DNA from: Comamonas sp. lk | GTDB lineage: Bacteria > Pseudomonadota > Gammaproteobacteria > Burkholderiales > Burkholderiaceae_C | Direction: 5' to 3' | NCBI GenBank assembly: GCA_945925985.1 | Contig: CAMELV010000006.1 | Location: forward strand, 62,001 to 126,000 | Length of the DNA stretch: 64,000 nucleotides | Shown: piece after piece, positions 38,003-61,310 of the stretch | How the letters are laid out: each line of letters starts with the position of its first letter | Numbering within the stretch: the first letter of the stretch is position 1 | Made by a program: the position numbers and the translations under genes | Notes under the pieces: model-generated | What the model was told of the DNA's origin: nothing | What the model saw: the letters and a program-made list of their open reading frames with translations, nothing else | The model's database searches: none

Positions 38003-38100
38003 CAACAATCGCCCTCTAGGCCACGTCCCTATTGGGTTTCTAGCTCCCGTTTTTGTAGCACTGTGTCATATGGCCTCCCGGTGCTTGGCAGCTGGGTGAC

Positions 38101-38140
38101 CTGACATGGAAACTTCATCGGGTTTTCATATCTCCGTCAT
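38101..38140 (+). promoter_or_regulatory. Four tandem PhoB-like 7-mers upstream of plcP
   Basis: CTGACAT, ACTTCAT, TTTTCAT and CCGTCAT begin at 38101, 38112, 38123 and 38134: exactly 11 bases apart with 4-base spacers, the geometry of Pho boxes (half-site CTGTCAT). A -10-like TAGCAT starts 11 bases after the last one, and the plcP start is 44 bases downstream. Confidence 0.7.
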
Positions 38141-38183
38141 GGACCGTGTCTAGCATCTCCGGAATTCTACGGAGAGGCGAACC

Positions 38184-39047
38184 GTGACATTTGATAACCT
38201 GACCACTGACCGAAATCTGCGCACCGTCTGGATCTCCGACATCCACCTGGGTACACCGGGTTGCCAAGCCGAAGCGCTGCTGGCGTTTCTGAAGAGCACC
38301 GAATGCGAAACGCTTTACCTGGTGGGTGACATCATTGACGGCTGGCAGCTGCGACGCACTTGGTACTGGCCGCAGGAGCACAACGATATAGTTCAAAAAA
38401 TTCTGCGCAAGGCCCGCAAGGGAACGCGGGTGGTGTTTGTTCCAGGCAACCACGACGAGTTTGCCCGCAAATACCTGCAGCACAATTTCGGTGGCGTGGA
38501 TGTGGTGGAGGACTGCGTCCACACTCTGGCAGACGGCCGGCGCCTATGGGTAACCCACGGTGATTTGTACGATGGCGTGATCCAGTGCGCCAAGTGGCTG
38601 GCCTACGCCGGTGATATTGCCTATGAGTTCATCCTCAAGTTGAATCGCCGCTTTAACGCGCTGCGGGCGCACCTGGGCTTGCCCTACTGGAGTCTGTCCA
38701 AATACCTTAAGCTCAAGGTCAAGCGAGCGGTCAGCTACGTTAGCGACTTTGAAACCGCCGTGGCGCACGAAGCCCGACGGCGCGGTTTGGACGGCGTGGT
38801 CTGCGGACACATCCACCATGCAGAGATGCGCCAGATCGAGGGCGTGCTTTACTGTAACGACGGCGACTGGGTTGAAAGCCTGACGGCCTTGGTGGAGCAC
38901 CACGACGGTCGCCTAGAAATCCTGGACTTTGGGACGCAGGTCGCCTCGGCGAAGCAGCCGGTGCCGTTGCCGGTCCCGGTGACGGGCCTTGCCAGTGCGG
39001 CGCTGGAACAAGCCACGCATGGTACGCCCAGTGCGTCAAAAAGTTAG
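38184..39047 (+). CDS. plcP: PlcP-type metallophosphoesterase (phospholipase C)
   Basis: About 287 residues of calcineurin-like phosphoesterase. Metal-site motifs are SDIHLG (D19, H21), GDIIDGW (D49), GNHDE (N89-H90), THGD (H125) and CGHIHH. The segment GWQLRRTWYWPQEHNDIVQKILRKARKG is characteristic of the PlcP/UDP-2,3-diacylglucosamine hydrolase-like group rather than LpxH, which has GDLFEAW. In Sinorhizobium, PhoB-controlled PlcP cuts phosphatidylcholine and related lipids into diacylglycerol during phosphate starvation. The four tandem Pho-like repeats upstream support that role. If wrong, a UDP-2,3-diacylglucosamine diphosphatase is the alternative. Confidence 0.75.
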   Translation: MTFDNLTTDRNLRTVWISDIHLGTPGCQAEALLAFLKSTECETLYLVGDIIDGWQLRRTWYWPQEHNDIVQKILRKARKGTRVVFVPGNHDEFARKYLQHNFGGVDVVEDCVHTLADGRRLWVTHGDLYDGVIQCAKWLAYAGDIAYEFILKLNRRFNALRAHLGLPYWSLSKYLKLKVKRAVSYVSDFETAVAHEARRRGLDGVVCGHIHHAEMRQIEGVLYCNDGDWVESLTALVEHHDGRLEILDFGTQVASAKQPVPLPVPVTGLASAALEQATHGTPSASKS

Positions 39048-39076
39048 CGACTGGTCGGACGTGACGCTGGTTGGGC

Positions 39077-40279
39077 ATGTCGAGTCAACCGCTCATCTTG
39101 CAAATCGACTGCTCCCCGACAGGCGCTGACACCGGGTTTTCGGTTGCCGGCCTGCAACGCATCCGGGATGACCTAGACGCTGAAGTCGCGGCAGCGAACC
39201 TCCCCGGGGCCGTGGTGATGTTGGTGCGCAATGACCGGCCAGCCTTTGCCTACGCGACGGGCTACCTGGACCCAGTGGCTCGCTCACCGATGTGTCTTGA
39301 CGCGCTCTTTCGCATCTATTCGATGACCAAACCGTTAACCTCGGTTGCGGCAATGATGCTGGTCGAACAAGGGGTGCTGGCTTTGGGCGACCGCATTGCA
39401 GACCATCTGCCCCAGATGCGCGGTGCCAGAGGCGAGACCACCGTTTTGCATCTGCTGTTGCACGCCAGTGGTCTGACGTATGGCACTCGCAGCAAAGACG
39501 CCACCCTCCGTCAAGCCTACGAAGACCTTGGCCTCGTCGTCAACCCGCGGGGCTTGGATGCCCAGCGCCTGTTGTATGGGCTGGCCCGTGTCCCCTTGCT
39601 GCAGATGCCGGGCACAAGCTGGGAGTACGGACTGTCGACAGATTTACTGGGACTGATGGTTGAATCCGTCACCGGTCAGCGGCTAGGCGCTTGGCTCCAA
39701 CAGCATGTATTCGGACCGCTGGGCATGGTCGATACCGCCTTCCAAGTCATGCCCGATCAGCTCGCTCGGCTCGCGCAGCCCTTTGCCCGCGACCCGGTCG
39801 ATGGAATGCCCATTGCGGCGCCCGACCATACTTTCGACGCCGCCTCCCAACCGCTGCTGGACAGTGGTGGCGCTGGCGCTATTTCAACTGCCGGCGACTA
39901 TCTGCAGTTTGCTCTCATGTTGCGCGGCGGTGGCCTGCACGGTGGCGCTCAAATGCTGCAGGCCGATACGGTTCAGTGCATGACCCGCGACCACATCGCC
40001 GGTCGGTTGGCGGCACGCGTCGCGCCAGGAATCGCTGCAATGTTGTCACCTGGCTACGGATTTGGACTTGGTTTTGGCGTTCGGCTGAAAGACGGAGCGG
40101 CTGATCTGCCAGGCAGTCCTGGGTTTTATTTCTGGTCGGGTACCTGCGGCACCATGTTCTGGGTCGATCCTGTACTTCAGGTGGCCGCCGTCTTCATGAC
40201 CCAAGCTCCAGGACTCAGCCGCCAATCTTATCGGCGCTGGTTCGTGCGCCGGGTCTACGAGGCCCTAGAGAGCCCATGA
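39077..40279 (+). CDS. Serine hydrolase, class C beta-lactamase-like
   Basis: About 400 residues with the beta-lactamase/DD-peptidase fold. The nucleophile motif SMTK is in RIYSMTKPLTSV, a Tyr-containing second motif is in SWEYGLSTD, and the C-terminal part has the usual GYGFGLGFGVR and HGG-like region. No signal peptide is visible, so it is likely cytoplasmic and an esterase or aminopeptidase. The TTG at 39071 in the ORF track is replaced by the ATG at 39077. It lies 29 bases after plcP and converges on the fused-ATPase ABC gene. Confidence 0.8.
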   Translation: MSSQPLILQIDCSPTGADTGFSVAGLQRIRDDLDAEVAAANLPGAVVMLVRNDRPAFAYATGYLDPVARSPMCLDALFRIYSMTKPLTSVAAMMLVEQGVLALGDRIADHLPQMRGARGETTVLHLLLHASGLTYGTRSKDATLRQAYEDLGLVVNPRGLDAQRLLYGLARVPLLQMPGTSWEYGLSTDLLGLMVESVTGQRLGAWLQQHVFGPLGMVDTAFQVMPDQLARLAQPFARDPVDGMPIAAPDHTFDAASQPLLDSGGAGAISTAGDYLQFALMLRGGGLHGGAQMLQADTVQCMTRDHIAGRLAARVAPGIAAMLSPGYGFGLGFGVRLKDGAADLPGSPGFYFWSGTCGTMFWVDPVLQVAAVFMTQAPGLSRQSYRRWFVRRVYEALESP

Positions 40280-40429
40280 CGATGGCGGGCCGCGCACCTG
40301 CAGTGCGTGTCCAACCTGCTCACCTAAAACCAAGGTGCCAAAGGCAGCGAAGAATCTCTTGATCGCTGCCTGCGGTGAGGCGTTTACTGGGGCGCCTCAT
40401 GTCAGTATTGAGGTAGAACCAGAGCAGTT

Positions 40430-42061
40430 TCACGCGGCAAAAGTGTGTGCTTCTGTGGCCGCGCCAACCAGCGCCGCGGTGTAAGCGTTGCGAGGACGGG
40501 CGAACACCTCAGCAGTCTCACCAGACTCGACCACCTGACCATCTTTAAGGACCACCACGCGTGGCGCCATCTTCCAGATCACCGACAGGTCATGGGTAAT
40601 CATCAGCATCGCGGTGGCGCGACGTTGCTGCATGGTTTGCAATTGCTCAAGCACCTGAGACTGGATTGACGCATCCAGCGCAGATGTGATTTCGTCGCAG
40701 ACCAGCAGGTCTGGCTCGGCAGCAAAGGCCCGCGCGATGGCGACCCGTTGTTGTTGGCCACCCGACAGGCTGCGCGGGTAGCGGTCCATGTAGCCCGACT
40801 CCATGCCCAGTTCCTGCAGCAGCGCAATCGCCCGCACCCGCGCTGCGGTCAGTGTCATGCCATGAAAAACCTGTAGCGGTCTGATGACCGCGTCACCCAC
40901 GGTCTTGCGCGGGTTAAGCGACGACAGCGGGTCCTGAAAGATCATTTGGATCCGTCGCAGCAGATCGGCCGGCCGCTGCGCGAGGGCCGCTGGCATCGGT
41001 TCTCCTTCCCAGCGCAGGTGGCGTCCGGTGTCGGGCAGTATCCCTGCTACCACCATGCCAAGGGTGCTTTTGCCCGAGCCTGACTCGCCAATCACGCCCA
41101 GAACCTCACCGCGAGTCAACTGCAAGCTGACGTCGCGCAGCGCGGCAGAGCGCGCGTTTCGCCGGAAAAGCCAGCCACCGCTGGGGTAGCTGAAGTGCAG
41201 GTGATCCACTCGAAGCAGGTCCGATCCAACGGGCTGTGCGGCAGGTGCGTGAGCCGGGTCAATTCGCAATGTGGCGGCCATCAGCAACTGCGCATAGGCG
41301 GTCTTGGGTGCTCTGAACACCTCACGGACCGCGCCGTGCTCTTCGATGCGGCCGTCCTTCATCACCAGCACACGGTCGCAAACCCGGGCCACGACGTTCA
41401 AGTCATGGGTAACCAGGACCAATGCTGCCTTGCTGTCCCGTCTCACGTCTCGCACAAGCTCCAGCACCTGCGATTCAGTTGCCTTGTCCAGTGCGGTGGT
41501 CGGTTCGTCGAGCACCAGGAGAGCGGGCTGGCAAGCCAGTGCCGCCGCAATCACGACACGTTGGCGCTGACCGCCGGAGAGCTGGTGTGGAAAACGTGAT
41601 GCGATAGCGGGGGGGTCCTGGAGGCCGGTTCGTGCCAATAACTCAAGCATCCGCACTCGCGCAGCGGTCCGGTCAAGTCGGGCGCGGGTCTGAAGAACCT
41701 CCATGATCTGCGCCCCGACACGCTGGTGGAAGGTCAGTGAGGAGAGTGGGTTCTGGGGCACCATGGCTACGGCGCGTCCGCGCAGCGCCTGCAGCGCTTG
41801 TGGCGCTGCGGTGGTGAGCTCCTGCCCCTGGAACCGCAAACTACCCCCCATGAACATGCCGCCGGCGGGCCGGTATCCCAGCAAGGCACGGGCCAGGGTG
41901 GACTTGCCTGACCCGGACTCCCCGACAAATCCGACAGACTCACCCGGCGAGATGTGAAAGGACGCGTCGCTGACAACCTGGCTCAGCGACCCGTCCACCG
42001 CCTGGTAGCCCATACCAAGCCGGTCGGCCACGACAAGCGGATCAGTGACCGGCGACACCAC
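40430..42061 (-). CDS. ABC transporter ATPase, fused DppD-DppF type
   Basis: About 543 residues with two complete nucleotide-binding domains in tandem. Each has Walker A (GESGSGKST), a signature motif (LSGGQRQRV and LSGGQQQRV) and a Walker B DEPTT or CDEITS site; the linker and C-terminus carry oligopeptide-type YAQLLMAAT and YTAALVGAA. This fusion replaces separate DppD and DppF subunits. It starts with GTG, overlapping the permease gene by 20 bases. It is the last gene of a four-gene importer operon. Confidence 0.88.
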   Translation of the reverse strand: MVSPVTDPLVVADRLGMGYQAVDGSLSQVVSDASFHISPGESVGFVGESGSGKSTLARALLGYRPAGGMFMGGSLRFQGQELTTAAPQALQALRGRAVAMVPQNPLSSLTFHQRVGAQIMEVLQTRARLDRTAARVRMLELLARTGLQDPPAIASRFPHQLSGGQRQRVVIAAALACQPALLVLDEPTTALDKATESQVLELVRDVRRDSKAALVLVTHDLNVVARVCDRVLVMKDGRIEEHGAVREVFRAPKTAYAQLLMAATLRIDPAHAPAAQPVGSDLLRVDHLHFSYPSGGWLFRRNARSAALRDVSLQLTRGEVLGVIGESGSGKSTLGMVVAGILPDTGRHLRWEGEPMPAALAQRPADLLRRIQMIFQDPLSSLNPRKTVGDAVIRPLQVFHGMTLTAARVRAIALLQELGMESGYMDRYPRSLSGGQQQRVAIARAFAAEPDLLVCDEITSALDASIQSQVLEQLQTMQQRRATAMLMITHDLSVIWKMAPRVVVLKDGQVVESGETAEVFARPRNAYTAALVGAATEAHTFAA

Positions 42062-42884
42062 GGGCGTGCTCCATGCCGAAAGCGTCGACGACGCCCTCGG
42101 TTGCGAAATTGATGCCTACCACGAGGCTGGAGATGCATCCAGCGGGCACCAGAATGAGCCAGGGTTGGGACCGAATTGACTGCAGTCCGTCATGGACCAT
42201 CAAACCCCAGTCGGGCGTGGGTGGCGATAGACCCAAGCCAAGAAAGGACAGGGTAGAGACCAGCAGCAGCGCGCTGGAGGTGCGCAGCGCAAATTCAACC
42301 CCCAGCAGGTCCAGAATATTGGGCAACATCTCGCGCACGATGATCCGGCTCGCGGATTCGCCCCGCAGCTTGGCGGCGATGATGAAACCTTGCGACATCA
42401 GCACCAGGCCCTGTGCCCTGGCAGTGCGGATCACCCCCATCATCTTGATCAGCATGATCACCACCACAAGCACCACCACCGACTGTCCAAACCCGGTCAC
42501 GAAAAGAGACACAAAGAGGATGGAGGGTATGGCAATCTTCATCTCAACAACACGGGAAATCACCTCGTCCCACAGGCCGCCACGGTAGGCCGCAAACAGA
42601 CCAAGCAGGCCGCCTCCAAGCGCGGCAAGGGCACCCGAGACCAGGGCCACTAAGAGGCAGGAACGGCCTCCCATCAACACTCTTGAAAGGAAATCCCGTC
42701 CGATTTCGTCGGTGCCAAGAAGGTACGTGGCGTCGGGTGGCGCAAAAGGCATGTCCTTCAACTGGTAAGGGTCGTGAGGGATTAACCATGGCGCAGCCAG
42801 CGCAACCACCAGGTGGAGCCCGACAAGCGCTATCCCGACGCCAGACATCGGATTGCGGAGCAGGTGGCGATAAAACGTACTCAT
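42042..42884 (-). CDS. ABC transporter permease, DppC type
   Basis: About 280 residues and six helices with LLGTDEIGRDFLSRVLMGGRSCL and the EAA loop AKLRGESASRIIVREMLPNILD. The ORF track begins far upstream in the previous gene; the ATG at 42884 is chosen because it overlaps the upstream stop (ATGA) and begins the family N-terminus STFYRHLLRNP. Confidence 0.88.
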   Translation of the reverse strand: MSTFYRHLLRNPMSGVGIALVGLHLVVALAAPWLIPHDPYQLKDMPFAPPDATYLLGTDEIGRDFLSRVLMGGRSCLLVALVSGALAALGGGLLGLFAAYRGGLWDEVISRVVEMKIAIPSILFVSLFVTGFGQSVVVLVVVIMLIKMMGVIRTARAQGLVLMSQGFIIAAKLRGESASRIIVREMLPNILDLLGVEFALRTSSALLLVSTLSFLGLGLSPPTPDWGLMVHDGLQSIRSQPWLILVPAGCISSLVVGINFATEGVVDAFGMEHARGVAGH

Positions 42885-43837
42885 GATTGTCTCGTGCGCG
42901 GATCCAGCGCAAGGATGGCTATGTCTGCCAAGAAGTTCATAGCCACCACGATGGCGGCCGAGGTAATGGCTATCGCCTGGATCACATGAACCTCGCGCTT
43001 GGAAATGGCGCGTACCAGTTCCTGGCCGACGCCTGGGTATGAAAACACCAGTTCTACGACGACGATGCCTGACACCAGGGCAGCCGCATAAAGCGCCATG
43101 GCGCTTAAAGTCGGGATCGCGGCTGCCGGCAATGCATGTCGCCAGACGATACGCCACTCGGGTATGCCAGTGAGTCGTAATCGTTCTACAAAGTCACTTG
43201 ACAGCGCGTCGACCATGCCGACGCGCAGCAGCCGGGTCAGGTAAGCGATGGAGCCGATCAGCAAGGTCAACACCACCAGCGGCGACGCCTGGAGAAGTGT
43301 CATGGCCGTGCCGCGTGTATCGGCTGTGATGGTGGCCGGGAACCAGGCCCAAGACACCGCCAACCACATCACCAGAAAGGTGCCCGTCACAAATTCGGGA
43401 ATCGAGTAGCCAATCAGGCTTAAGGTGGACACCCATTTGTCAGTGGAGCGCCGATGCGCATAAGCGGCGCATACACCAAGCAACACCGCCATTGGCAATG
43501 CAAACAACAGTGTGGTTGCCGCGAGCAACAAGGAATTGCGCATCGGGTAAGCGATGATTTGGCTGACTGCCACCTTAGAAATCAAGGTTCTGCCCAGATC
43601 GAAATGAGCCAGTCCCCACAAGAACTCCCCGAGCCGGACGGCCACCGGCCGGTCCAGCCCGAGTTCGGTCTTCATTGCTGCAAGCCTTTGCGGCGGCATC
43701 GCGGACATCTCGTCTGCCGACAAGGTCACGTCCAGCGCGTCGCCTGGCAATACCTCGGTGGCCAGAAATACGAAAGTCGCCAGCATGACCAAGGTCAGCA
43801 GCGACAACACTACCCGACGAAGAAGTGCTTTTAGCAT
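42881..43837 (-). CDS. ABC transporter permease, DppB type
   Basis: About 318 residues with LKALLRRVVLSLLTLVMLATFVFLATEVLPGDA at the N-terminus and the EAA loop DFVERLRLTGIPEWRIVWRHALPAA. First membrane subunit of the importer. It is separated from the binding-protein gene by 49 bases that form a strong hairpin. Confidence 0.88.
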   Translation of the reverse strand: MLKALLRRVVLSLLTLVMLATFVFLATEVLPGDALDVTLSADEMSAMPPQRLAAMKTELGLDRPVAVRLGEFLWGLAHFDLGRTLISKVAVSQIIAYPMRNSLLLAATTLLFALPMAVLLGVCAAYAHRRSTDKWVSTLSLIGYSIPEFVTGTFLVMWLAVSWAWFPATITADTRGTAMTLLQASPLVVLTLLIGSIAYLTRLLRVGMVDALSSDFVERLRLTGIPEWRIVWRHALPAAAIPTLSAMALYAAALVSGIVVVELVFSYPGVGQELVRAISKREVHVIQAIAITSAAIVVAMNFLADIAILALDPRTRQS

Positions 43838-43842
43838 GTTGG

Positions 43843-43869
43843 ACTTGGCATGCTAAAAGCATGCCAAGT
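43843..43869. other. Intercistronic hairpin between binding-protein and permease genes
   Basis: ACTTGGCATGC and GCATGCCAAGT form a perfect 11-bp stem around TAAAA. The message runs on the reverse strand from the binding-protein gene into the permease gene, so this hairpin probably stabilises the upstream segment or terminates part of the transcription, giving more binding protein than permease. Confidence 0.75.
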
Positions 43870-43886
43870 TGTCCCGTCAATACCCC

Positions 43887-45452
43887 TCAAGCTTTCCACA
43901 CTTTGTCGAATTGAATGGACCAGATTTGCGGGTGGAAGGTCAGATTGCGTATGTTTTTCTTGCGGATCATGAAGTTGTCGCCACCTGCTGGCAACACGGC
44001 TGGCACTTCCTCGTGCAGGATGGCTTGCATCTGGGTGTACAGGGCCTTGCGCTTGTCCGCCTCACGCGTCACCATCGCCTGTGCATACAAAGCCATGTAG
44101 CGATCATGTTCCGGGCCCGTCCAGTGGCCGCTTTCCACGAATTCGTGGCGCATGCGATACAGAGATATGCCGGCGTTTCTGGAGCCCACTGCTGTCATCG
44201 CAAATTTGTGGTACTTGCCCTTGGCAATGTCGTTATCGCCCGTCCGGAACTGGATGTAGCCATCATTGGGCCGCTCTTCGATCGCCATCGTGAAGCCGGC
44301 TTCCTTGACGGATTGCTGCAGCACCTGAAAGTAGCGCGGCACTTCCGGCAGTTGCGGGCTGTAGTACAGCGTCGGCAGGGTAATGCCGTTGGGGTATCCT
44401 GCTTCAGACAGCAGGCGCTTGGCCTTGGCCAAGTCTCGCCCCCCAGGACGCGGTACAAAGTTGGGGTCTGTAACAACCAGATGGCTGTCGTTACCGACCC
44501 AACCAAATTTGCCCCCGTAGGCGATCCGCACAATTGCCTCGCGGTCGATGGCCGCCGCGAAGGCCTGCCGGATGCGTTTGTCGAGGAATGGCGAACCTGG
44601 GTGCTTGGGCAACTGGACGACAAAACTGTAACCGCCCTTGGCTGACTCAATGTCGTAAGCCGAGTCGGACTGGAATTGCGCCAATGCCCGTGGGTCGATG
44701 CTCATGACGGCATCGAACTGACCCGCACGTAAACCGTTGAGCGCTGCTTCCTGTTGACCTTCTCGGTTGTACAGCTCTACCCGGTCCAGATAAGGGAAGC
44801 CCTTGCGCCAATAGCCCTCATGACGCTCCATGATGAGAGAGCGATTGGGATCCGTGGAGACGATCTTGAACGGCCCGCTACCAATACCACTGAATCCGAT
44901 AGTCTCCAGTGGACTAGCCGGCATGATCACGCTGTTGTACTCGGCCAGAATGTATGGAAATTCGGCGTTGCCGCTGTCCAGCGTGAAGCGGGTGACGTAT
45001 TTGCCAATGGTTTCGAGCTTTATGATCTGACGCGCGAACGGGGCATTTCTCCGGTGGTACTCAAACGAGGACGCTACGTCCTTGGCGGTCATCTCGGTGC
45101 CGTTGTGAAACATCACCCCTTCGCGCAGCGTGACGTCCCACACATTGAGCTTGTTGTCTGTGGGCTCGACCTTGCTTGCCAACTCAAGTTCCCACCCAAG
45201 CTGCTCGTTGACCCAAGTCAGGCAGTTCCACTGCAGTCGTGTATTCGAGTCGACCACAAAGTAAGGATGCCGCGCATTGCTGGCATCTGCAGCGCGGCGG
45301 TTGGCCGACAGTTGGGCGTAGATCAGGGTTCCACCGCGCTTGGGTGTTTCCTGGGCGAAGGCTTTTCCCAACAAGCTTGAATCAAGCGACGCAATCAGCA
45401 TGCCGGCACCGGCACCACCGCGCAAAATATCTCTGCGAAGAATCTTTGACAT
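43887..45452 (-). CDS. ABC transporter solute-binding protein, SBP_bac_5 family, Tat-exported
   Basis: About 521 residues. The N-terminus SKILRRDILRGGAGAGMLIASLDSSLLGKAFA has the RRDIL twin-arginine motif, so export is probably through Tat. The family-5 fold is shown by VWDVTLREGVMFHNGTEMTAKDVASSFEYHRR and a hydrophobic segment YGGKFGWVGNDSHLV. It is the binding protein of the downstream permeases and fused ATPase. The substrate may be a peptide or similar. A LysR gene starts 33 bases away on the other strand. Confidence 0.87.
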   Translation of the reverse strand: MSKILRRDILRGGAGAGMLIASLDSSLLGKAFAQETPKRGGTLIYAQLSANRRAADASNARHPYFVVDSNTRLQWNCLTWVNEQLGWELELASKVEPTDNKLNVWDVTLREGVMFHNGTEMTAKDVASSFEYHRRNAPFARQIIKLETIGKYVTRFTLDSGNAEFPYILAEYNSVIMPASPLETIGFSGIGSGPFKIVSTDPNRSLIMERHEGYWRKGFPYLDRVELYNREGQQEAALNGLRAGQFDAVMSIDPRALAQFQSDSAYDIESAKGGYSFVVQLPKHPGSPFLDKRIRQAFAAAIDREAIVRIAYGGKFGWVGNDSHLVVTDPNFVPRPGGRDLAKAKRLLSEAGYPNGITLPTLYYSPQLPEVPRYFQVLQQSVKEAGFTMAIEERPNDGYIQFRTGDNDIAKGKYHKFAMTAVGSRNAGISLYRMRHEFVESGHWTGPEHDRYMALYAQAMVTREADKRKALYTQMQAILHEEVPAVLPAGGDNFMIRKKNIRNLTFHPQIWSIQFDKVWKA

Positions 45453-45477
45453 GGGCTACTCCATAAAAAAATATAAT

Positions 45478-45497
45478 TTGATAGATGAACGCATCAA
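45478..45497. promoter_or_regulatory. Inverted repeat TTGAT-N10-ATCAA in the LysR/ABC divergent region
   Basis: TTGAT at 45478-45482 and ATCAA at 45493-45497 surround the annotated ATG of the LysR gene. LysR sites are often of T-N11-A form, so this is a plausible operator and an argument that the true LysR start is later. Confidence 0.35.
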
Positions 45498-46441
45498 CAA
45501 ATGTAATTTCGACGCATGTCAAAAATGTGACCGCAACGCCACTTGACGTTGAAGTCGTGAGGCGCGACGGCGGCATCACGCTCGCCTCGTTGCGAGCGTT
45601 CGTTGCGGTTGTAGAAGAGAAGAGTTTTTCGCTCGCAGCGCAGCGCCTCGAGGTGACCCAACCCGGCATCTCATTGCAATTGGCAGCGCTTGAACGCGCC
45701 TGTGGATTCCTGGTTTGTCACCGAAAGCCGCAGGTTGCCCTGACAGAACAAGGGCGCGCGTTATTCCTCAAGGCGCGCCTGATCATCAGCCAGATGAGCG
45801 AGTTCGAAGCAAGCGTGCGCGACCTGCAGGACACCGCCGGCGGACGCATCAGAGTTGGCATGTCCGCGCCCTATGTCGCGATGCCCCTGGTTGCACGCTA
45901 CAGGGCGCAATTTCCCCATGTGCTGCTGCACACACAAATGGGCAATACGTCGTCACTACTGGAAGACGTCCAGCAATTGCGTATCGACGTCGGCGTGATG
46001 TCGTTGCTGGAGCCGCTCTCGTCATTGGCGTGCACCTTGATTGCGGCACCGCGGTTGATGCTCTGTGTGCGAGCGGATGACCCGATGGCCAAATTACAAC
46101 AGGTACGGGTGAATGACCTGGCAGGGCGTGACATCATTCTGCGTGAAAAAGGCTCATTGACACGGCAGGTGCTGGAAGCGGCGTTTGCGGCGGAGGGACT
46201 GCCGCTGCGCAGTAACTTTGAGTTGGCCTCGCGTGAAGCGATCAAAGAGGCTGTAGCCGCAGGGCTGGGTGCCACCGCGCTCTTCGAAGGCGAGTTGGGA
46301 GGCGATCGTCGCCTGGTTATGGTCCCTTTCGTGGGACTGCCCCGCTCCTCGGGGGTTTATGCAGTAGCGCTGCGGGAGTCCCTCGACCTGCCCCATGTTG
46401 GCGCGTTCATGGCCTGTGCCGTCCAAGGCCTCGTGTCATGA
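45485..46441 (+). CDS. LysR-family transcriptional regulator
   Basis: About 318 residues from the ATG. The winged helix ITLASLRAFVAVVEEKSFSLAAQRLEVTQPGISLQLAALE and the LysR effector-binding domain are clear. The helix begins about 30 residues into the protein, which is longer than usual, and no Shine-Dalgarno precedes the ATG. A GTG at 45557 would shorten it to a more usual size and free the operator region. Likely regulator of the divergent ABC operon. Confidence 0.88.
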   Translation: MNASTNVISTHVKNVTATPLDVEVVRRDGGITLASLRAFVAVVEEKSFSLAAQRLEVTQPGISLQLAALERACGFLVCHRKPQVALTEQGRALFLKARLIISQMSEFEASVRDLQDTAGGRIRVGMSAPYVAMPLVARYRAQFPHVLLHTQMGNTSSLLEDVQQLRIDVGVMSLLEPLSSLACTLIAAPRLMLCVRADDPMAKLQQVRVNDLAGRDIILREKGSLTRQVLEAAFAAEGLPLRSNFELASREAIKEAVAAGLGATALFEGELGGDRRLVMVPFVGLPRSSGVYAVALRESLDLPHVGAFMACAVQGLVS

Positions 46442-46498
46442 ACGCGTCACATGGCTTGCCTAACCTGAAAATTTATTATCGGTTTTCAAAGGATCAAA

Positions 46499-47401
46499 AT
46501 GACAGCTTGTTCCGCATTCAATCAGCCCGGGCGCTTTTTCAAGGGCAACCTCCATACCCACTCGACGATGTCGGATGGGCGCTATGCCCCTGAGGAGGTC
46601 TGCCGGCGCTACCGCGAAGCAGGGTATGACTTCCTGACCTTGAGCGACCACTTTCTGCCGGTCTATGATTTTCCGGTGACCGACACCACGGCCTATCGCA
46701 GTGAGGGGTTCACCACCTTGCTCGGCGCCGAAGTGCATGTTCGGGCAACGTCCATGGGAGAGGCTTGGCACCTGCTCGCAGTGGGGTTGCCACGCGATTT
46801 TCTAGCAACTCAGCCCGGTGAGTCCGGGCCACAGTTGGCGCAGCGTTGCCGCGACGCTGGCGCATTTGTCGGCATCGTCCATCCGGCCTGGTATGGGCTG
46901 TCATTGGAAGACGCCCGCAGCATTGAAAGCGCACACGCGGTAGAGATTTATAACCACACCAGCGCCGTGAAAACCGACCGTGGCGACAGCTCCGCGCTGT
47001 ATGACCAATTGTTGGCAGAAGGTCTGCGGTTGAGCGCGTTTGCATCGGATGATGCACACTTTCACTTCGACGATGCTTTCGGTGCCTGGGTAATGGTGAA
47101 GGCAGATAGCAACCAGCCAGAATTGCTTTTGGAGTCCCTCAAGCAGGGTCACTACTACTCTACGCAGGGGCCGTTGATCCACGATATCAGCATTGATGCC
47201 GGGCAGTTACATGTGAAATGCAGTGCTGCACGCGCTGTGATGTTGTTGGGCCGTGCTTCCAAAGCGGTTAGCGAGCTAGGTGTCAGCATAGAGTCTGCGA
47301 CATTGGCAACCGAGGGTGTTGCCAAGGGAGGCTACGGCCGCGTCGTTGTGATTTCTGACGACGGCCGCCGGGCCTGGAGCAACCCGATCTGGTTTGCCTG
47401 A
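46499..47401 (+). CDS. PHP-domain metallohydrolase, CehA/McbA type
   Basis: About 300 residues. The PHP motifs are GNLHTHSTMSDG (H-x-H), LSDHFLP, VGIVHPAW and FASDDAH, ending with a small beta-rich domain. PHP proteins are metal-dependent phosphatases, nucleases or carboxylester hydrolases; CehA-like members act on carbaryl esters, and others are histidinol phosphatases. It follows the LysR gene on the same strand after 57 bases. Substrate cannot be given. Confidence 0.8.
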   Translation: MTACSAFNQPGRFFKGNLHTHSTMSDGRYAPEEVCRRYREAGYDFLTLSDHFLPVYDFPVTDTTAYRSEGFTTLLGAEVHVRATSMGEAWHLLAVGLPRDFLATQPGESGPQLAQRCRDAGAFVGIVHPAWYGLSLEDARSIESAHAVEIYNHTSAVKTDRGDSSALYDQLLAEGLRLSAFASDDAHFHFDDAFGAWVMVKADSNQPELLLESLKQGHYYSTQGPLIHDISIDAGQLHVKCSAARAVMLLGRASKAVSELGVSIESATLATEGVAKGGYGRVVVISDDGRRAWSNPIWFA

Positions 47402-47421: not shown

Positions 47422-48783
47422 CTAATAAGGCGGTAGAGAAACCGCCTCAGCCCCTTTGGGTTTGGCCCGACCAATGCCGGTGTAGTCAAACCCCAGCTCG
47501 GCCATCTGTTCCGGGTCGTACAGGTTGCGCCCGTCGATGATGACCGGCTGGCGCAGGCGCTGGCGCAGTTCGGCGTAGTCGGGGCTGCGGAACTCACGCC
47601 ACTCGGTGACCACAATCAGGGCGTCTGCGCCGTTAGTTGCCGCGAGCGGGTCTTTGCAGGCCACAAAGCCAGGCTGAGCTTGCCAACGAACGCTTGCACC
47701 GACCATTGCCGCGGGGTCAAAGGCTTGGACGCGGGCGCCGCGCTGCAGCAGCTCTTCAATCAGGTTCACACTCGGCGCTTCGCGCATGTCGTCAGTGCCC
47801 GGCTTGAAGGCCAGCCCCCACACCGCAAACTGCAGGCCACTCAGGTCTTCGCCAAAGCGTGCCACCACGCGCCGCCCCAACAGGCCGCGTTGCCGGTCGT
47901 TGATGGCTTGGGTGGCATGCAGCATGCTCAGCTCAGTGCCGGCCTCGGTGGCCATGTGCGCCAGGGCCCGCACGTCCTTAGGAAAACAGGAACCGCCCCA
48001 GCCACAGCCGGCATAGAGAAAATGGCTGCCGATGCGGGAGTCGCTGCCAATGCCAAGCCGCACTTGCTCGATATCAGCGCCTACCTTCTCCGACAACAGC
48101 GCCATCTCATTCATAAAGCTGATGCGTGTTGCCAGCATGGCATTAGCCACGTACTTGGTGAGCTCGGCGCTGCGCACGTCCATCATCATCAGGCGGTCGC
48201 GGTTGCGGAGAAACGGGGCATAGAGCGCACGCATCAACAATGCCGCCTGGTCGTCGTCGCAGCCCACGATCACCCGGTCCGGCCGCATGAAGTCGTCAAT
48301 CGCCACGCCTTCCTTGAGGAACTCCGGGTTGGACACCACGGCGTAGGGCAGCACCGCAGCGCGTTGGCGCAGGGCGGCTTCCATGGTGCTGCGGACCCGG
48401 TCGGCCGTGCCCACCGGCACCGTGCTCTTATTGACCACCAGCTTGTAGTCGGTCATGTGATCGCCGATGGTATGCGCCACTGCCAGCACATGTTGCAAGT
48501 CGGCAGAGCCATCCTCAGCAGCAGGCGTGCCCACGGCGATGAACACAATGGTCCCATGGTTCACGGCCACGGCCACATCGTTGGTAAAGGTCAGTCGGCC
48601 GGCCGCAGCATTGCGCTGCAATAGCGGCTCCAGGCCTTGCTCATGGATGGGGGAGATACCGCGCTGCAAATCAGCCACCCGCTTTGCATCGACGTCCACG
48701 CAGACCACGCTGTTGCCCATTTCTGCCAGGCAGGCCGCTGTCACCAGGCCGACGTAACCGGCGCCAAACACACTGACTTTCAT
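47422..48783 (-). CDS. ugd: UDP-glucose 6-dehydrogenase
   Basis: About 453 residues. N-terminal Rossmann motif KVSVFGAGYVGLVTAACLAEMG, the catalytic cysteine in CGWGGSCFPKD, and the C-terminal dinucleotide-fold domain with GLAFKPGTDDMREAP are diagnostic. It converts UDP-glucose to UDP-glucuronate with two NAD+. The ORF track start is 20 codons early; the ATG at 48783 is used. UDP-glucuronate could serve polysaccharides or, in principle, the GT4 lipid glycosyltransferase encoded 13 kb away. Confidence 0.93.
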   Translation of the reverse strand: MKVSVFGAGYVGLVTAACLAEMGNSVVCVDVDAKRVADLQRGISPIHEQGLEPLLQRNAAAGRLTFTNDVAVAVNHGTIVFIAVGTPAAEDGSADLQHVLAVAHTIGDHMTDYKLVVNKSTVPVGTADRVRSTMEAALRQRAAVLPYAVVSNPEFLKEGVAIDDFMRPDRVIVGCDDDQAALLMRALYAPFLRNRDRLMMMDVRSAELTKYVANAMLATRISFMNEMALLSEKVGADIEQVRLGIGSDSRIGSHFLYAGCGWGGSCFPKDVRALAHMATEAGTELSMLHATQAINDRQRGLLGRRVVARFGEDLSGLQFAVWGLAFKPGTDDMREAPSVNLIEELLQRGARVQAFDPAAMVGASVRWQAQPGFVACKDPLAATNGADALIVVTEWREFRSPDYAELRQRLRQPVIIDGRNLYDPEQMAELGFDYTGIGRAKPKGAEAVSLPPY

Positions 48784-48929
48784 GTACTTCTCCAGAGGGT
48801 TGTTCTGGAGCAAGATCGTCGCGAACCGACGTGACCATGGCATGACGTTAGCGCGTCAAATCTGTGACAAGCGCAACCTTTTCAACTCAAACACCTCAAA
48901 AGTAAAACCATGATTGTGCGGTAGATCAC

Positions 48930-50078
48930 TCACCACCACCTCCCTGCCAAAACCAGGCCTTGGGCCTCAAAGCGGAGATTGCCGACCAGCGACTCTCCGG
49001 CAGCATCTTTGTAGAGGGTGGACCGATTGACCACTTTGAAAATACTGGCGTCAACACCAACGCCGGGCTTGAGGGTGCCCAGGGCGGGGCGGCGGATTGC
49101 CCGGGCTGCGTTGACCGTGGCGCAGGCGACCACGTCATTGAGCGACATGCCCAACACATGAAATTTTGCCAAGGTATGAAGCAGATCAATCGCTGGGCCA
49201 TTGGCAGACAGCAGGTGTACATCTGAAGAAATGACATCAGGTTGAATGCCCGCCTTGAGCATGGCGCGTGACGTTGCGAAGCTGCAGGACCCGCCCCCGT
49301 GACCAATGTCAAAAATGACGCCGCGGTTCAACGCATCCAGAACCTCTGCTCGGACGGCACCTTCGGGCGTGGTGGGCGCATTAGGTGGTGGTTTGAAGCA
49401 GTGCGTGAGGATGTCACCCTTGCGAAGGCGCGACAGCACTTCGACTCGGGTGGGTGGGATGTAGTCGATGTGCGCCATCACAGGTAAGCCCAAGGTCTCA
49501 GCGACCTCAATGGCGATATCCAGTGGCGCGAAGCCACGCGTGCCGCTGGAGCCACGGCCCACGCGAACCTTGATGCCAACCACCAGGTCGGCATGTTCGC
49601 GGGCCACGCTGATGCACGAATTCATGTCGAGCAGGCGCAGATCCTCGCACTCGCCCATGCGCACGGTGCGAGAGAAGGCGAAGATGCCAGGAAACGAGAT
49701 ATTCAGCAAGGGCAGGATGCGCAAGGGCGCAGAGGGCTCAATCACATGCTTACGAAAACCCAATAAATTCCCCGCGCCAGAGGTGCCTGCATCGACCAGG
49801 GTGGCTGTTGAGCTCTGGCGAGCCAAAGCAACCGGATCAACGCCGATTGAGGTACCGCCCCAGTACACATGCGTGTGCAAGTCGATAAGCCCCGGTGTAA
49901 CGATCATTCCCGTGACATCGCGTACATCGGCAGTAACCCCGGCGCGCAGATTTAGACCGATTTCAGCAACGACCCCATTCAAAAATCGCACATCGCAAAT
50001 CTGATCAAGTCCCTGTGAGGGATCGATTACCCGGCCTTGGCGCAACAGGACTTCGTGCGGTGCATTATGAAGAGACAC
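48930..50078 (-). CDS. Amidohydrolase/deacetylase family metallohydrolase
   Basis: About 382 residues of a metal-dependent TIM barrel. TPGLIDLHTHVYWGGTSIGVDP gives the first metal site, ATLVDAGTSGAGNLLGFRKHV follows, MAHIDYIPP and SSDVH give further ligands. This is close to the Atu3266/EF0837 group, for which activity on acetyl-(R)-mandelate and N-acetyl-D-amino acids has been reported. A deacylase or lactonase for the substrate imported by this operon is likely. Last gene of the operon, 16 bases after the M14 gene. Confidence 0.78.
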   Translation of the reverse strand: MSLHNAPHEVLLRQGRVIDPSQGLDQICDVRFLNGVVAEIGLNLRAGVTADVRDVTGMIVTPGLIDLHTHVYWGGTSIGVDPVALARQSSTATLVDAGTSGAGNLLGFRKHVIEPSAPLRILPLLNISFPGIFAFSRTVRMGECEDLRLLDMNSCISVAREHADLVVGIKVRVGRGSSGTRGFAPLDIAIEVAETLGLPVMAHIDYIPPTRVEVLSRLRKGDILTHCFKPPPNAPTTPEGAVRAEVLDALNRGVIFDIGHGGGSCSFATSRAMLKAGIQPDVISSDVHLLSANGPAIDLLHTLAKFHVLGMSLNDVVACATVNAARAIRRPALGTLKPGVGVDASIFKVVNRSTLYKDAAGESLVGNLRFEAQGLVLAGRWW

Positions 50079-50094
50079 GGACAGTTACTTTCTT

Positions 50095-51057
50095 TCAGGC
50101 AACCCTGCGGCCCCAAGCAAACGCCTGTTGACCTTTGGCGGGCGAGGGTCGGGGTGCGATCACAATAGCTTCATCAAAGGGCGCCAGAACCGGTTTTTGA
50201 CCGTCCATGGCAGCGCATGCCCCCAATGGGTACGCGTCAAAGCCCGCATAGCTGCCCACAATTTCTAGGTGATCGCTTTCAGCGATGACGGGCTGCACAA
50301 TCTCAAAACGTTCTATGGCTGAGTCGGCAGGGACAACCGCGGCGGCAAGCAAGTTGACTGCAACGGCCGTTTCGATCATGCCGCAAACCTGCAGCATGCG
50401 AACCGCTGTCTGCCAGGCGTTGTCCACGCTAGAGCGTGCAAAGTGTTGACCGCACTCGACAATCAGGGCTACCGCGCCCGCGTCGTCCTGGCCAAAGGCG
50501 TTGTAATCAATGAGGTGATAACCCTCGTGCCGGATCCCCGGCAAAAACAGCTGGCGTCTTGGATGTCCCAGTGCGTCGGCGAGAGCCCGTGTCTTGGCAA
50601 GTTTGGGTAAAACGAAAAAGGGTTTGAGTGCGTGCCAGGTCGAGTGCAGGTCCAGCAGGCGGTCCACTGTGCGAACAATGGGGAGCATCTCATGGGCGCG
50701 GCGCGCCTCAATGGTCTGCGCATCCTCTTGTAGCAGGTCGTCGTGCCACAGTCGATTGAAGTCTCTGTCTAAAAACCGTGCGTCGAGCCGTTTTGGGCCG
50801 AAGCACTGGTAGGCGGACACATTGGCAAAGGACAGGGTTAATGCCCCGCAAACCGGACGAATATTGAGGTCCAACAACCGCTTGACGACACGCATGCCAC
50901 ACAATTCGTTGCCGTGCGTTAGCGCATTGATCATGACGTGCGGGCCAGCACGTGGGCTACGAAACGAGTGGACGTAGTCCACACCCGACGTGCCCCGCCG
51001 GTAGGGCGACAGGTCTTCCGGCTCGAGCTCTAGGGGATAGTCAGGTGCCTGACTCAT
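50095..51057 (-). CDS. Succinylglutamate desuccinylase/aspartoacylase family protein
   Basis: About 320 residues of the M14-like AstE/AspA family. Zinc ligands come from ALTHGNELCG (H and E) and LLDLHST (H), and the catalytic acid is expected in the VALIVECGQH region. These enzymes hydrolyse N-acyl amino acids such as N-acetylaspartate or N-succinylglutamate. Its substrate here should be an amide, possibly released by the same operon that encodes the amidohydrolase. Confidence 0.82.
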   Translation of the reverse strand: MSQAPDYPLELEPEDLSPYRRGTSGVDYVHSFRSPRAGPHVMINALTHGNELCGMRVVKRLLDLNIRPVCGALTLSFANVSAYQCFGPKRLDARFLDRDFNRLWHDDLLQEDAQTIEARRAHEMLPIVRTVDRLLDLHSTWHALKPFFVLPKLAKTRALADALGHPRRQLFLPGIRHEGYHLIDYNAFGQDDAGAVALIVECGQHFARSSVDNAWQTAVRMLQVCGMIETAVAVNLLAAAVVPADSAIERFEIVQPVIAESDHLEIVGSYAGFDAYPLGACAAMDGQKPVLAPFDEAIVIAPRPSPAKGQQAFAWGRRVA

Positions 51058-51066
51058 CAGGGCGAC

Positions 51067-51414
51067 TTAGGCCTTCAGCGACAAAGTGGCAACCACCTTG
51101 AATTCACAGGAATTAGGCACGGCTACCGCCAATCTAAGCCAGCCACCAAAGTTCAAGACTCTGCCGAAGCTGACCGTATCTGGCACCGTAGGCAGCTCGA
51201 ACTCTGTACCTTCGTTCACCCAATGCAGGCCATCCGGCGAAATCTGAACACGCGCCACAGCTGTCCCCAAGTGTGGCGTCGACTCGGGCATGAGGTGAAT
51301 GAAGAAAACAGCTTCGCTGGCCCAAGCGGCTTCATAGGGTTCGGTGTAGACCTGCCCGGTCCAGCGCTCGCCTCTGGCAATGACCGCAGTATAGGTGTTG
51401 CGTAAAGTGGTCAC
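51067..51414 (-). CDS. Small unknown protein of the catabolic operon
   Basis: About 115 residues from a GTG at 51414, placed one base after the stop of the neighbouring unknown gene and served by GGAG upstream. It is rich in beta-strand-like segments (AVFFIHLMPE, RVQISPDGLHWVNEG, FGGWLRLAVAV). I do not recognise the family. The longer ORF in the track begins inside the upstream gene. Conservation with the DUF neighbour suggests the two act together. Confidence 0.6.
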   Translation of the reverse strand: MTTLRNTYTAVIARGERWTGQVYTEPYEAAWASEAVFFIHLMPESTPHLGTAVARVQISPDGLHWVNEGTEFELPTVPDTVSFGRVLNFGGWLRLAVAVPNSCEFKVVATLSLKA

Positions 51415-51415
51415 G

Positions 51416-52270
51416 TTAAAAATCTCCTGACAAAAGCACGCTGTCCAGATAAAAGAAAGTCCGTTTAGCGGTATCACTTTCGCAAAAAAAGGCCAAGTTC
51501 AGCATGCAATCTAGATTGGCCATAGCGGGCATTTTGATCGACTCCAAACCTGAGGGGTCCATAACAAGGTCATTGCACTGGAACCCGAGCCAACACATGT
51601 TGACCAAGTCGAAATCAAAGCGCAGGTAGTGCCAGTTGATCTTGGTGGGGATCTCGTTATAGCAAAGGTTTTGGTGCCCCCCGGGGACATCTTCCCAGTC
51701 TTCTGGACTCAGGTGATCGTGGGTGACGATCTCGCTGCCGCCAATCGCCCGAAAAGGTGTGGTGCGTTGCTTGAACTGCCATTGGTGTCGACGCTCGCCG
51801 TTCAGGGTGTTGAGGTAACGCAGATGGGGCATCACGCGTTGCTCTCGGTCTTGCAGGTCAAACAAGACACCGAACGCGCGGACGTCTTTGTCTGACAACT
51901 TCAACTCATTGGCCTCTGGCTTGCAAGCGAAATAAGTCTCGACCCGAATACGAGAGGCTTTTCGAAACGTCACTCGTTTGATGGCTGTGTTCCTCTCGCC
52001 AGCGACGGGGCGCGTGGCGATCTTTAAGGCATAGGTGCCATCGAATGAGCCGTGGGTGCCGCTGTCCCAGTGGGTGATCTGACTCAACATCGGCTGGGTG
52101 TGACGGGCATAGGATGTCGTCATGGTGTCGAGGGAATCCTGGTAGTTGCCGACAAGGCAGGTCCAGCCGTTCATGCCCTGATCGAAGTCGTCAAAGTAGA
52201 TGACCCGCTCCATCGGGTCAAAACGCGATAAACGCGGATCGCCATGAACAGGGTGACTATCAGAATGCAT
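51416..52270 (-). CDS. Unknown protein, possible jelly-roll domain (DUF6772-like)
   Basis: About 284 residues. No signal peptide. Short beta-strands and many aromatic residues (DDFDQGMNGWTCLVGNY, HWDSGTHGSFDGTYALKIAT, WHYLRFDFDLVNMCWLGFQ, FFYLDSVLLSGDF) are typical of beta-sandwich carbohydrate-binding-like folds. It resembles uncharacterised DUF6772-type proteins found with sugar ABC operons. Function unknown; sugar binding or a hydrolase accessory role would fit. Confidence 0.55.
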   Translation of the reverse strand: MHSDSHPVHGDPRLSRFDPMERVIYFDDFDQGMNGWTCLVGNYQDSLDTMTTSYARHTQPMLSQITHWDSGTHGSFDGTYALKIATRPVAGERNTAIKRVTFRKASRIRVETYFACKPEANELKLSDKDVRAFGVLFDLQDREQRVMPHLRYLNTLNGERRHQWQFKQRTTPFRAIGGSEIVTHDHLSPEDWEDVPGGHQNLCYNEIPTKINWHYLRFDFDLVNMCWLGFQCNDLVMDPSGLESIKMPAMANLDCMLNLAFFCESDTAKRTFFYLDSVLLSGDF

Positions 52271-52274
52271 GAGA

Positions 52275-53138
52275 TCATCCTTTCACTGAGCCAGCGGTCA
52301 GACCGGCAATTAGGTACTTCTGCACTATCCAAACGAAGGCCAAGATGGGCAGCAGCTGCAGGGTAGCGGCAGCAAACAAAATGCCCCAGTCCACCCCATC
52401 AATCGCTCCCACCATTTCGGAAATCACTAGTGGTGCTGTCTTTGCATCCACCGTGGTGAATATAAAGGCGAACAGGAAGTCATTCCAAGCGAAGACCATG
52501 ACGAATACGGCGGTGGAGATCAAGCCTGCATACGACAGCGGCAAGATGATTCGCCTCAGGGTTTGCCAAAGACCGGCGCCGTCCATTGACGCGGACTCTT
52601 CCAGCTCCCGTGGCAACTGATCAATAAATGCCTTCATGATCCATACGCCCAGGCTAACAAAAAATGAGCAGTACAAGACCACGAGCAGAAACTTGGTGTC
52701 ATTCAGGTGTAGCCAGTTAACAGCAGGAAACAAGGGCAAAGTGAGCACAATGGGCGGCAACAGGCGCACCATGATCATGAAGAACGCGCTTGCCGTTAAG
52801 GCTTTGCTGGAGCGACGCGAGTAAGCGTAGCCCGCCAGGAAAGAAACGACCAGAGTCAAGGCTGTCGCCAACAAGGCAACCCACAGACTGTTGGTCAGGT
52901 TGGTGAAAAAATCAGGCCAACGCTTCCATAGATTTTGGTAGTTTTGGAAAGTAAAGGAGAAGCCCCACAAAGAACCGTGAGAGAGAATATCGCGCGGTGC
53001 GCGCAATGACATTGAGACGATCAACGCGATCGGAAAGATCGACCACAGCAATACCGCAGCCAATGCCAGCATTCGAAGCATGCCGATGCCCCACTTCTTT
53101 AGCCGGCGCGGGTTCAGCAAAGGCTTAGGAGGCGTCAT
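52275..53138 (-). CDS. ABC sugar permease, MalG/UgpE type
   Basis: About 287 residues with six helices. The EAA loop is PRELEESASMDGAGLWQTLRRIILPLSYAG, and the C-terminus ends in the typical GLTAGSVKG. Second membrane subunit of a maltose-type importer. It overlaps the MalF-type gene by 14 bases. Confidence 0.9.
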   Translation of the reverse strand: MTPPKPLLNPRRLKKWGIGMLRMLALAAVLLWSIFPIALIVSMSLRAPRDILSHGSLWGFSFTFQNYQNLWKRWPDFFTNLTNSLWVALLATALTLVVSFLAGYAYSRRSSKALTASAFFMIMVRLLPPIVLTLPLFPAVNWLHLNDTKFLLVVLYCSFFVSLGVWIMKAFIDQLPRELEESASMDGAGLWQTLRRIILPLSYAGLISTAVFVMVFAWNDFLFAFIFTTVDAKTAPLVISEMVGAIDGVDWGILFAAATLQLLPILAFVWIVQKYLIAGLTAGSVKG

Positions 53139-53997
53139 GGCGAAACATCTTCTTGTACATGAGGTGGATGTACCAGGCGCCCATCAGCAATGAGGCCAGC
53201 AGCATCAGCCAGCCTGTGGCGGCGGCAGCGCCAAAGTCCGCGTAACGAAATGCATGACGGTACAAATAAACAGCCAGAACCTCGGTGGTTCGTGCCGGGC
53301 CACCACCCGTCAATAGCCACACCTCGGAGAAGATTCGGAAAGCAAAAATGTACCTAAAAACCAGGGCTACCAGCATCGCAGGTACCAACAAGGGGATTGT
53401 TATGCGAATGAATTGCTTCCAAGCGCTGGCGCCGTCGACTTGGGCCGCTTCATACAGATCACGCGGAATACCCAAAAGAGCGGTGTATAGCAGGATGAAC
53501 GTGAAGGGAAGGTGATGCCAAACCGACAGCACGATCACAAGGGCCAGACCATGGCTTGGCTCCACCGACCAATCCAGCGGTGGCAAGCCCAGGGTAGCCA
53601 ATGCGTTGGTGATGGGGCCACCATAGGGATCCATCATGAACTTCCAAATCACAACCGACACCACCTCGGTGATCGCATAGGGTGCAAGTACCATGGCGAT
53701 CATCCATTTGCGCCATGGAATCCAACCAGCGAATAGGACCGCCACGCCTAGGGCCAGAGCAAACTCCATGAACACGATGGTGTTCACCACGATGGCGGTG
53801 TTCCATAACGCTCGCCAGAAATAGGGGTCGCCCAGCACGGTGGCGTAATTGGCAAGCCCAGCCCACTCTGGTGACTTGCCATAGGTGGATCGCGTCAGGC
53901 TTAACCAGAAAACGTAGAGCGCCGGCACAAACAAAACCAGCACCAGCAGTGCCTGGGCAGGGCTGACCATGAGCCAATGGCGACGGTCCGGTTTCAT
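53125..53997 (-). CDS. ABC sugar permease, MalF/UgpA type
   Basis: About 290 residues with six helices and the EAA loop PRDLYEAAQVDGASAWKQFIRITIPLLVPA. First membrane subunit of the maltose-type importer; ATGA joins it to the dehydratase gene upstream. Confidence 0.9.
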   Translation of the reverse strand: MKPDRRHWLMVSPAQALLVLVLFVPALYVFWLSLTRSTYGKSPEWAGLANYATVLGDPYFWRALWNTAIVVNTIVFMEFALALGVAVLFAGWIPWRKWMIAMVLAPYAITEVVSVVIWKFMMDPYGGPITNALATLGLPPLDWSVEPSHGLALVIVLSVWHHLPFTFILLYTALLGIPRDLYEAAQVDGASAWKQFIRITIPLLVPAMLVALVFRYIFAFRIFSEVWLLTGGGPARTTEVLAVYLYRHAFRYADFGAAAATGWLMLLASLLMGAWYIHLMYKKMFRHDAS

Positions 53998-56137: not shown

Positions 56138-56139
56138 GG

Positions 56140-57423: not shown

Positions 57424-57473
57424 AACCATCTCCAAAGGGGCGCTCGCCAGGCGAAGTACGACAAAGCGCATGT

Positions 57474-57488
57474 CAACATATTATGTTG
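57474..57488. promoter_or_regulatory. 15-bp perfect palindrome upstream of the binding-protein gene
   Basis: CAACATA-T-TATGTTG, 51 bases upstream of the binding-protein start. Its length and symmetry fit a GntR- or similar winged-helix regulator site. No regulator gene is present in the operon. Confidence 0.5.
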
Positions 57489-57516
57489 TTGGATTTCCTG
57501 GATATTCAGTATGAAT

Positions 57517-57533
57517 GTTTCGTACGGCGAAAC
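57517..57533. promoter_or_regulatory. Second inverted repeat in the same intergenic region
   Basis: GTTTCG-TACGG-CGAAAC, perfect 6-bp arms, about 115 bases upstream of the MalK-type ATPase gene. It may be a second operator for the divergent ATPase promoter. Confidence 0.4.
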
Positions 57534-57649
57534 TTTGAGAAATCCATTCGTATTTGAGTGCCTTCAGTCAGTTACCATGAAAAGCTGGCTTTTGCTTTTG
57601 GTCGAAGCGCGAAAGGGTCATCTGTAAATTTCTACGAGGGGGACAGGCC

Positions 57650-59620: not shown

Positions 59621-59640
59621 ATTTCTAACTGGAGCAATTG

Positions 59641-61287: not shown

Positions 61288-61310
61288 GCGACGACCGATC
61301 AGCGCAACAG

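Follow-up and report, generated by a model that had tools for sequence, protein, structure and literature searches.

The gene at positions 38184–39047 of the window, that is, of the whole 64-kb stretch of DNA analyzed here, which comes from a freshwater bacterium resembling Rhodoferax, is on the evidence of its sequence a plcP and not an lpxH, coding for a predicted intracellular phospholipase C of the calcineurin fold (+ strand, GTG start, 287 amino acids). Very probably, this gene is switched by PhoB, the diacylglycerol released by its product is re-headed to glycolipid by a glycosyltransferase of family GT4, and the module to which both genes belong has been split by two insertions. There is nothing unusual about the plcP gene and its promoter, which belong to a known kind, plcP being expected in the Pho regulon; what is new is a conserved locus of Burkholderiales from lakes and soils, under predicted Pho-box control, that apparently remodels membranes. 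Family membership, the 11-bp array with its conservation, gene order and insertions can be read directly in the DNA.

We envisage that upon exhaustion of phosphate, phosphorylated PhoB would bind two head-to-tail Pho boxes at 38101–38140 and bring sigma-70 RNA polymerase to the -10-like hexamer TAGCAT, turning plcP on. PlcP would then cleave the cell's own phospholipids, chiefly PE and PG, to diacylglycerol and phospho-alcohols, with recycling of phosphate, and the GT4 enzyme would put a sugar on the diacylglycerol from UDP-glucose or UDP-glucuronate, the latter supplied by the co-regulated ugd. Hence plcP would be one member of a PhoB module also comprising ugd, psd2, a PLP enzyme, an Mpo1-like protein, GT4 and LplT. 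We infer PhoB binding and induction, the enzyme activities releasing and re-heading diacylglycerol, and the glycolipid products from precedent in other bacteria (PMC4796936, PMC8528852, PMC9239053, PMC3972451).

The ugd gene (47422–48783, - strand), encoding UDP-glucose 6-dehydrogenase, probably starts at ATG 48783 and not at 48843. It is preceded by a four-slot Pho array (TTGTCAC/TTGACGC/ACGTCAT/TGGTCAC, 48831–48870, - strand), which scores 26.5 bits versus a shuffle maximum of 20.1, overlaps the start of the naive ugd ORF and is also present in the closely related locus L219 (CAJAXU010000276.1). The gene psd2 (58703–59689, - strand; ORF start probably over-long) encodes a second homolog of phosphatidylserine decarboxylase, the main copy of which lies on contig C7. 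A partial Pho array, TTTTCAT/CTGTCAA/(GTTGGAT)/TTGTCAT (59581–59620, + strand), is kept in L218 and L219 and partly in L220 and L222; it stands before the gene for a class-III PLP enzyme (59641–61287, + strand), which resembles GSA aminomutase and mycosubtilin aminotransferase and carries Lys366. Its conserved N-terminal stretch, some 90 residues long (LSRAKHRSLAGHSRMAKR..PGYAYDE), matched no Pfam family, and the ORF at 59695–61314 (- strand), antisense to the real PLP-enzyme gene, was discarded. Then follow the gene for an Mpo1-like/DUF962 membrane protein (61311–61919, - strand; Pfam match below cut-off), the predicted agt-like lipid glycosyltransferase (GT4, 62073–63317, + strand) and an LplT-like lysophospholipid transporter (63331–63999, - strand) that runs past the window edge. 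Facing the Mpo1-like gene is a Pho box, ATGTCAC/TTTTCAT (61990–62007, - strand), which overlaps on the other strand the one facing GT4, GTGACAT/GTTTCAT (62001–62018, + strand), with an extra TTGTCAT at 62033–62039.

Relatives carry between plcP and GT4 the genes ugd, sometimes a GT28 resembling diglucosyl-DAG synthase, the second psd, the PLP enzyme and DUF962, with LplT after GT4; this GT28 was not found in the present genome, the assembly of which is 95% complete. When the upstream regions of each gene were tested for half-sites at a spacing of 11 bp (12–92 regions per gene), the signal was found to be enriched before plcP, ugd, GT28, DUF962, LplT, GT4 and the PLP enzyme. The enrichment before GT4 came from the weight matrix test, the strict TCAY test giving none, and the upstream regions of psd2 had no signal in either test, thereby providing a built-in negative. 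From these sequence comparisons, the module recurs across Burkholderiales and is predicted to be under the control of Pho boxes.

It is possible, if considerably less probable, that glucosyl- or glucuronosyl-diacylglycerol is not the main product, or not the only one, and that the PLP enzyme, psd2 and the Mpo1-like protein make another phosphorus-free amino- or hydroxy-lipid, or free the phosphate from the phospho-alcohol left by PlcP. Among 44 genome loci with full flanks, chosen by the presence of the PLP enzyme, DUF962 and psd2 occur in all 44 and GT4 in 43, and only 16 have plcP and 13 ugd within 10 kb. Pho boxes stand before DUF962 and the PLP enzyme, and the phosphatases for the phospho-alcohols produced by PlcP have been described as unknown (PMC3972451). 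The PLP enzyme might conceivably aminate a lipid precursor of the keto-acyl or aldehyde type, its best solved relative being the aminotransferase domain of mycosubtilin synthase; breakdown of phosphoethanolamine is an alternative idea. However, the substrate of the PLP enzyme is unreadable from sequence, psd2 has no Pho box of its own, and plain glycolipid synthesis needs none of these genes to account for plcP, ugd and GT4. We propose only tentatively that in Burkholderiales, including abundant freshwater plankton, a PhoB-switched module may make an undescribed phosphorus-free lipid or recover head-group phosphate. No place is assigned to the PLP enzyme, psd2 or DUF962 in the remodelling pathways of the literature we searched, in which no paper on the module was found either; the locus makes it testable which phosphorus-free lipids are formed and how the phosphate of released head groups is regained.

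The control of plcP by PhoB is predicted from four tandem half-sites on the + strand, CTGACAT (38101–38107), ACTTCAT (38112–38118), TTTTCAT (38123–38129) and CCGTCAT (38134–38140), whose starts at 38101, 38112, 38123 and 38134 advance in exact steps of 11 bp and thus form two adjacent Pho boxes. This array fits the definition of the Pho box as two 11-nt direct repeats, each with seven conserved and four less conserved positions, as in the CTGTCAT of E. coli (PMC4415409). The -10-like TAGCAT (38151–38156, + strand) follows 10 bp 3′ of the last half-site, and the GTG start codon at 38184 lies 27 bases past it, preceded by GGAGAGG; TAGCAT is a weak match to the sigma-70 -10 element, a point against the promoter reading. 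The pstSCAB-phoU-phoB-phoR locus is present in the genome, with PhoB above its curated cut-off, and its own pstS promoter (TTGTCAC-N4-TTGACAC-N10-TAGAAT) has the same N10 spacer as CCGTCAT-N10-TAGCAT before plcP. Using a four-slot weight matrix trained solely on plcP promoters of other genomes, and 100 first-order shuffles of the whole 64-kb window on both strands as control, the array at 38101 scored 28.7 bits versus a shuffle maximum of 20.1. The exact pattern TCAT-N7-TCAT-N7-TCAT has three matches in the 4.29-Mb genome, including the plcP site; of the other two, one lies across a coding overlap and one is a short tandem repeat. TCAT arrays elsewhere in the genome (contigs C20, C42, C2, C4 and C38) are coding or unrelated and were rejected.

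The phasing of the half-sites is maintained among orthologs. We compared the upstream regions of 72 plcP orthologs from the family at every spacing between 6 and 17: 37 have two or more TCAY at a distance of exactly 11, versus 0–6 at the eleven other spacings; at least three phased TCAY were present in 11 and four phased HCAY in 13, each versus 0–1 at other spacings. About half of the family orthologs have no pair by the strict TCAY test. Outside the family, 11 of 22 plcP genes show a TCAY pair at spacing 11, versus four or fewer at the six other spacings tested. In L219, CAC replaces the terminal CAT of the window in all four plcP heptamers, spacing and TAGCAT being unchanged. From this phasing and the L219 array, the doubled Pho box before plcP is therefore regarded as common to much of the family and not as a peculiarity of this genome.

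These data bear upon the idea that the tandem repeats arose by chance or are the site of another regulator, with plcP outside the Pho regulon. Single half-site pairs are indeed non-significant in the 64-kb window when matrix scores are compared with shuffles, but the four-slot array exceeds every shuffle, the genome's own pstS has the same geometry, the 11-bp phase is kept over 72 genera and beyond the family, and the half-sites of L219 have changed together, which makes this idea very improbable. A previous, sequence-only reading had recognized four half-sites 11 bases apart with TAGCAT at the expected distance, and had called the gene a probable member of the Pho regulon. The same coordinates were found on re-reading, and the predicted PhoB-type promoter is now supported by the matrix score, the pstS geometry, the ortholog phasing and the conservation in L219.

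As to the partner of plcP, the product of the GT4 gene at 62073 has GT4 domains but is only 33% identical (E 1.7e-43) to the presumed Agt1 of P. aeruginosa, encoded beside a PA3219-like plcP, so that UDP-glucose and UDP-glucuronate are both candidate donors. It has relatives among lipid glycosyltransferases, namely PimA in the PDB and, below cut-off, the models of GlcN-PG synthase and alpha-MGlcDAG synthase. Of 121 family genomes, 39 carry an ortholog of this GT4, and plcP accompanies it in 38 of the 39 (hypergeometric p about 3e-6). In 16 other family genomes the two genes are 0.9–10.7 kb apart, and in four cases on a single contig the distance exceeds 1 Mb; about half of the family genomes bearing GT4 have them on separate contigs or over 1 Mb from each other. 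Such co-occurrence and close linkage support GT4 as a functionally linked partner of plcP, as had been surmised earlier from the sequence. The accompanying claim that known plcP and agt genes lie together, so that a distance of 23 kb would be odd, is in contrast not borne out by published systems: agt2 (PA0842) of P. aeruginosa lies far from plcP (PA3219) (PMC8528852), plcP (atu1649) and agt (atu2297) of A. tumefaciens are encoded apart (PMC3972451), and among marine plcP loci six arrangements have been described, agt being nearby in slightly more than 25% of isolates (PMC4796936). The distance between plcP and agt is thus a poor criterion of partnership.

In the present genome, the separation of 23 kb appears to be derived, because two blocks of transporter and catabolic genes have been inserted into a locus that is compact, with the same order and orientation, in L219. 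There plcP, ugd and psd2 adjoin and the PLP enzyme is 96% identical. The order and strands of the window, plcP(+) ugd(-) psd2(-) PLP(+) DUF962(-) GT4(+) LplT(-), are identical for all seven genes in L219 and in genome G092. Window segments 38007–38940, 47471–48870 and 58730–63999 align with L219 6551–7485, 7624–9023 and 9093–14358, respectively, and the alignment breaks at the edges of the two inserts. The first insertion, of about 8.4 kb (39071–47401) between plcP and ugd, is not present in L219 and L222 and carries genes for a beta-lactamase-fold esterase, an Opp/Nik-type ABC transporter, a LysR regulator and a PHP-domain protein; the second, of about 9.9 kb (48930–58720) between ugd and psd2, was delimited by the alignment to L219 and carries genes for an amidohydrolase, an AstE/AspA-type protein, DUF6772, an ABC transporter, and MR/MLE and PALP proteins. 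Its right end is common to L218 (CAMCZF010000109.1, 92% DNA identity). At the insertion edges we found no tRNA and no repeat mark of a mobile element, apart from a direct repeat of 9 bp, TGACGCTGG, at the edges of the first (39062/47399), which is within chance. That the gap might be an independent, original arrangement of genes merely sharing a region would accord with the separation of the two genes in about half of the GT4-bearing family genomes, but the seven-gene order and orientation common to L219 and G092, together with the breaks at the insert edges, leave this little likelihood. On the 5′ side of plcP lie boxCBA and a gene for 3-oxoadipyl-CoA thiolase, which are unrelated. Within the first insertion, Pho-box-like pairs occur at 45516–45533 (- strand), before a gene for a family-5 solute-binding protein (43887–45452), and at 46433–46450 (+ strand), before the PHP-domain gene (46499–47401), both within the shuffle range.

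The assignment of the phospholipase itself is based upon residues typical of PlcP, all of which are present in the window protein: GDIxDGW (here GDIIDGW), WPQxHND (within WYWPQEHND), GNHDE, CGHIHHA and NxGDWVES. GNHDE stands where LpxH has invariant GNRDF. In a tree of 64 proteins (39 PlcP and 25 LpxH rows), PlcP and LpxH split with a support of 100/100, the bootstrap being nearly, not fully, settled, and PA3219-like and SMc00171-like proteins fall with the window protein on the PlcP side. The latter is 55.9% identical to a P. aeruginosa protein encoded beside an agt1-type gene (NZ_CP137508), these two genes presumably being PA3219 and PA3218 from the arrangement described in PMC8528852. It is 48.9% identical to an S. 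meliloti protein whose gene adjoins those of an AHL synthase and LuxR (CP090106) and which from this neighborhood is presumably SMc00171, and 20–29% identical to LpxH proteins over longer alignments. The genome has one copy of PlcP. The window protein matched Metallophos families only and not the Pfam family of LpxI, and a phmmer search of the PDB with PlcP gave zero matches.

The name 'UDP-2,3-diacylglucosamine diphosphatase' frequently given by public automatic annotation to relatives of plcP, including plasmid-borne homologs, and the common calcineurin-like superfamily with its weak matches to LpxH models might suggest an LpxH-type enzyme of lipid A synthesis, an identity hardly credible and rejected here on account of scores far under both model cut-offs (41.9 vs 134 bits and 34.7 vs 190 bits), a separate LpxH-type gene in the genome (C3:195734; 180.6 bits, just under the model cut-off), the tree split, the missing GNRDF and the predicted phosphate-starvation promoter. 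PlcP rather than LpxH had also been judged probable in the sequence-only reading, which the phylogeny, model scores and separate LpxH bear out.

Compared with known systems, the locus resembles most closely that of P. aeruginosa (PlcP PA3219, Agt1 PA3218 and Agt2 PA0842; PMC8528852) in its PlcP (56% identity), the Pho box in front, the GT4-type transferases and the presence there too of a transferase away from plcP. It differs in having no adjacent agt and a doubled Pho box, and the P. aeruginosa plcP is accompanied, in the stretch that we read, by neither psd2 nor a class-III PLP enzyme, and by neither ugd nor LplT. The plcP of S. meliloti (SMc00171 type, CP090106; 49% identity), encoding a phospholipase C that acts inside the cell in phosphate starvation (PMC3972451), has quorum-sensing neighbors and no glycosyltransferase within 5 kb. 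Methylosinus trichosporium also remodels its lipids to glycolipids under phosphate limitation with PlcP and Agt, but from an adjacent plcP-agt operon unlike the present arrangement, the neighborhood being variable in type I methanotrophs (PMC9239053). In A. tumefaciens, PlcP (atu1649) and a bifunctional Agt (atu2297) using UDP-glucose and UDP-glucuronate are encoded apart as here, and no module with a PLP enzyme, psd2 and Mpo1-like protein is described (PMC3972451). LpxH shares with PlcP the metallophosphoesterase fold and metal-binding motifs, differing in GNRDF versus GNHDE and in its separate clade and gene. An Mpo1-like gene (L216 8459–8776) lies close to plcP-agt1 of P. aeruginosa, which hints that this family is tied more widely to lipid remodelling in phosphate starvation.

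Beyond the right end of the window, about 1.3 kb further, lies phnCDE (L159 1299–4000, contig C6), coding for a phosphonate ABC transporter, with PhnC and PhnD above curated cut-offs, a box-like ATGTCAC/TCGTCAT before phnC and PhnN- and PhnF-like genes after phnCDE; the region including phnCDE reads, from its predicted gene content, as a phosphorus-scarcity island. A cysteine-rich gene, YkgJ-like by eye though with no Pfam match (L159 545–1018, - strand), adjoins LplT in L218–L222; it stands behind three phased half-sites, ACGTCAT/TTTTCAT/TCGACAC (about L159 1068–1099, - strand). Elsewhere, on contig C31, the array GGGTCAT/TCTTCAT/AGTTCAC/GTTTCAT (L160 10556–10595, + strand) precedes a gene for a family-5 solute-binding protein, with a metallophosphoesterase and a UgpC-like ATPase beside it, likely representing another transporter of the Pho regulon.
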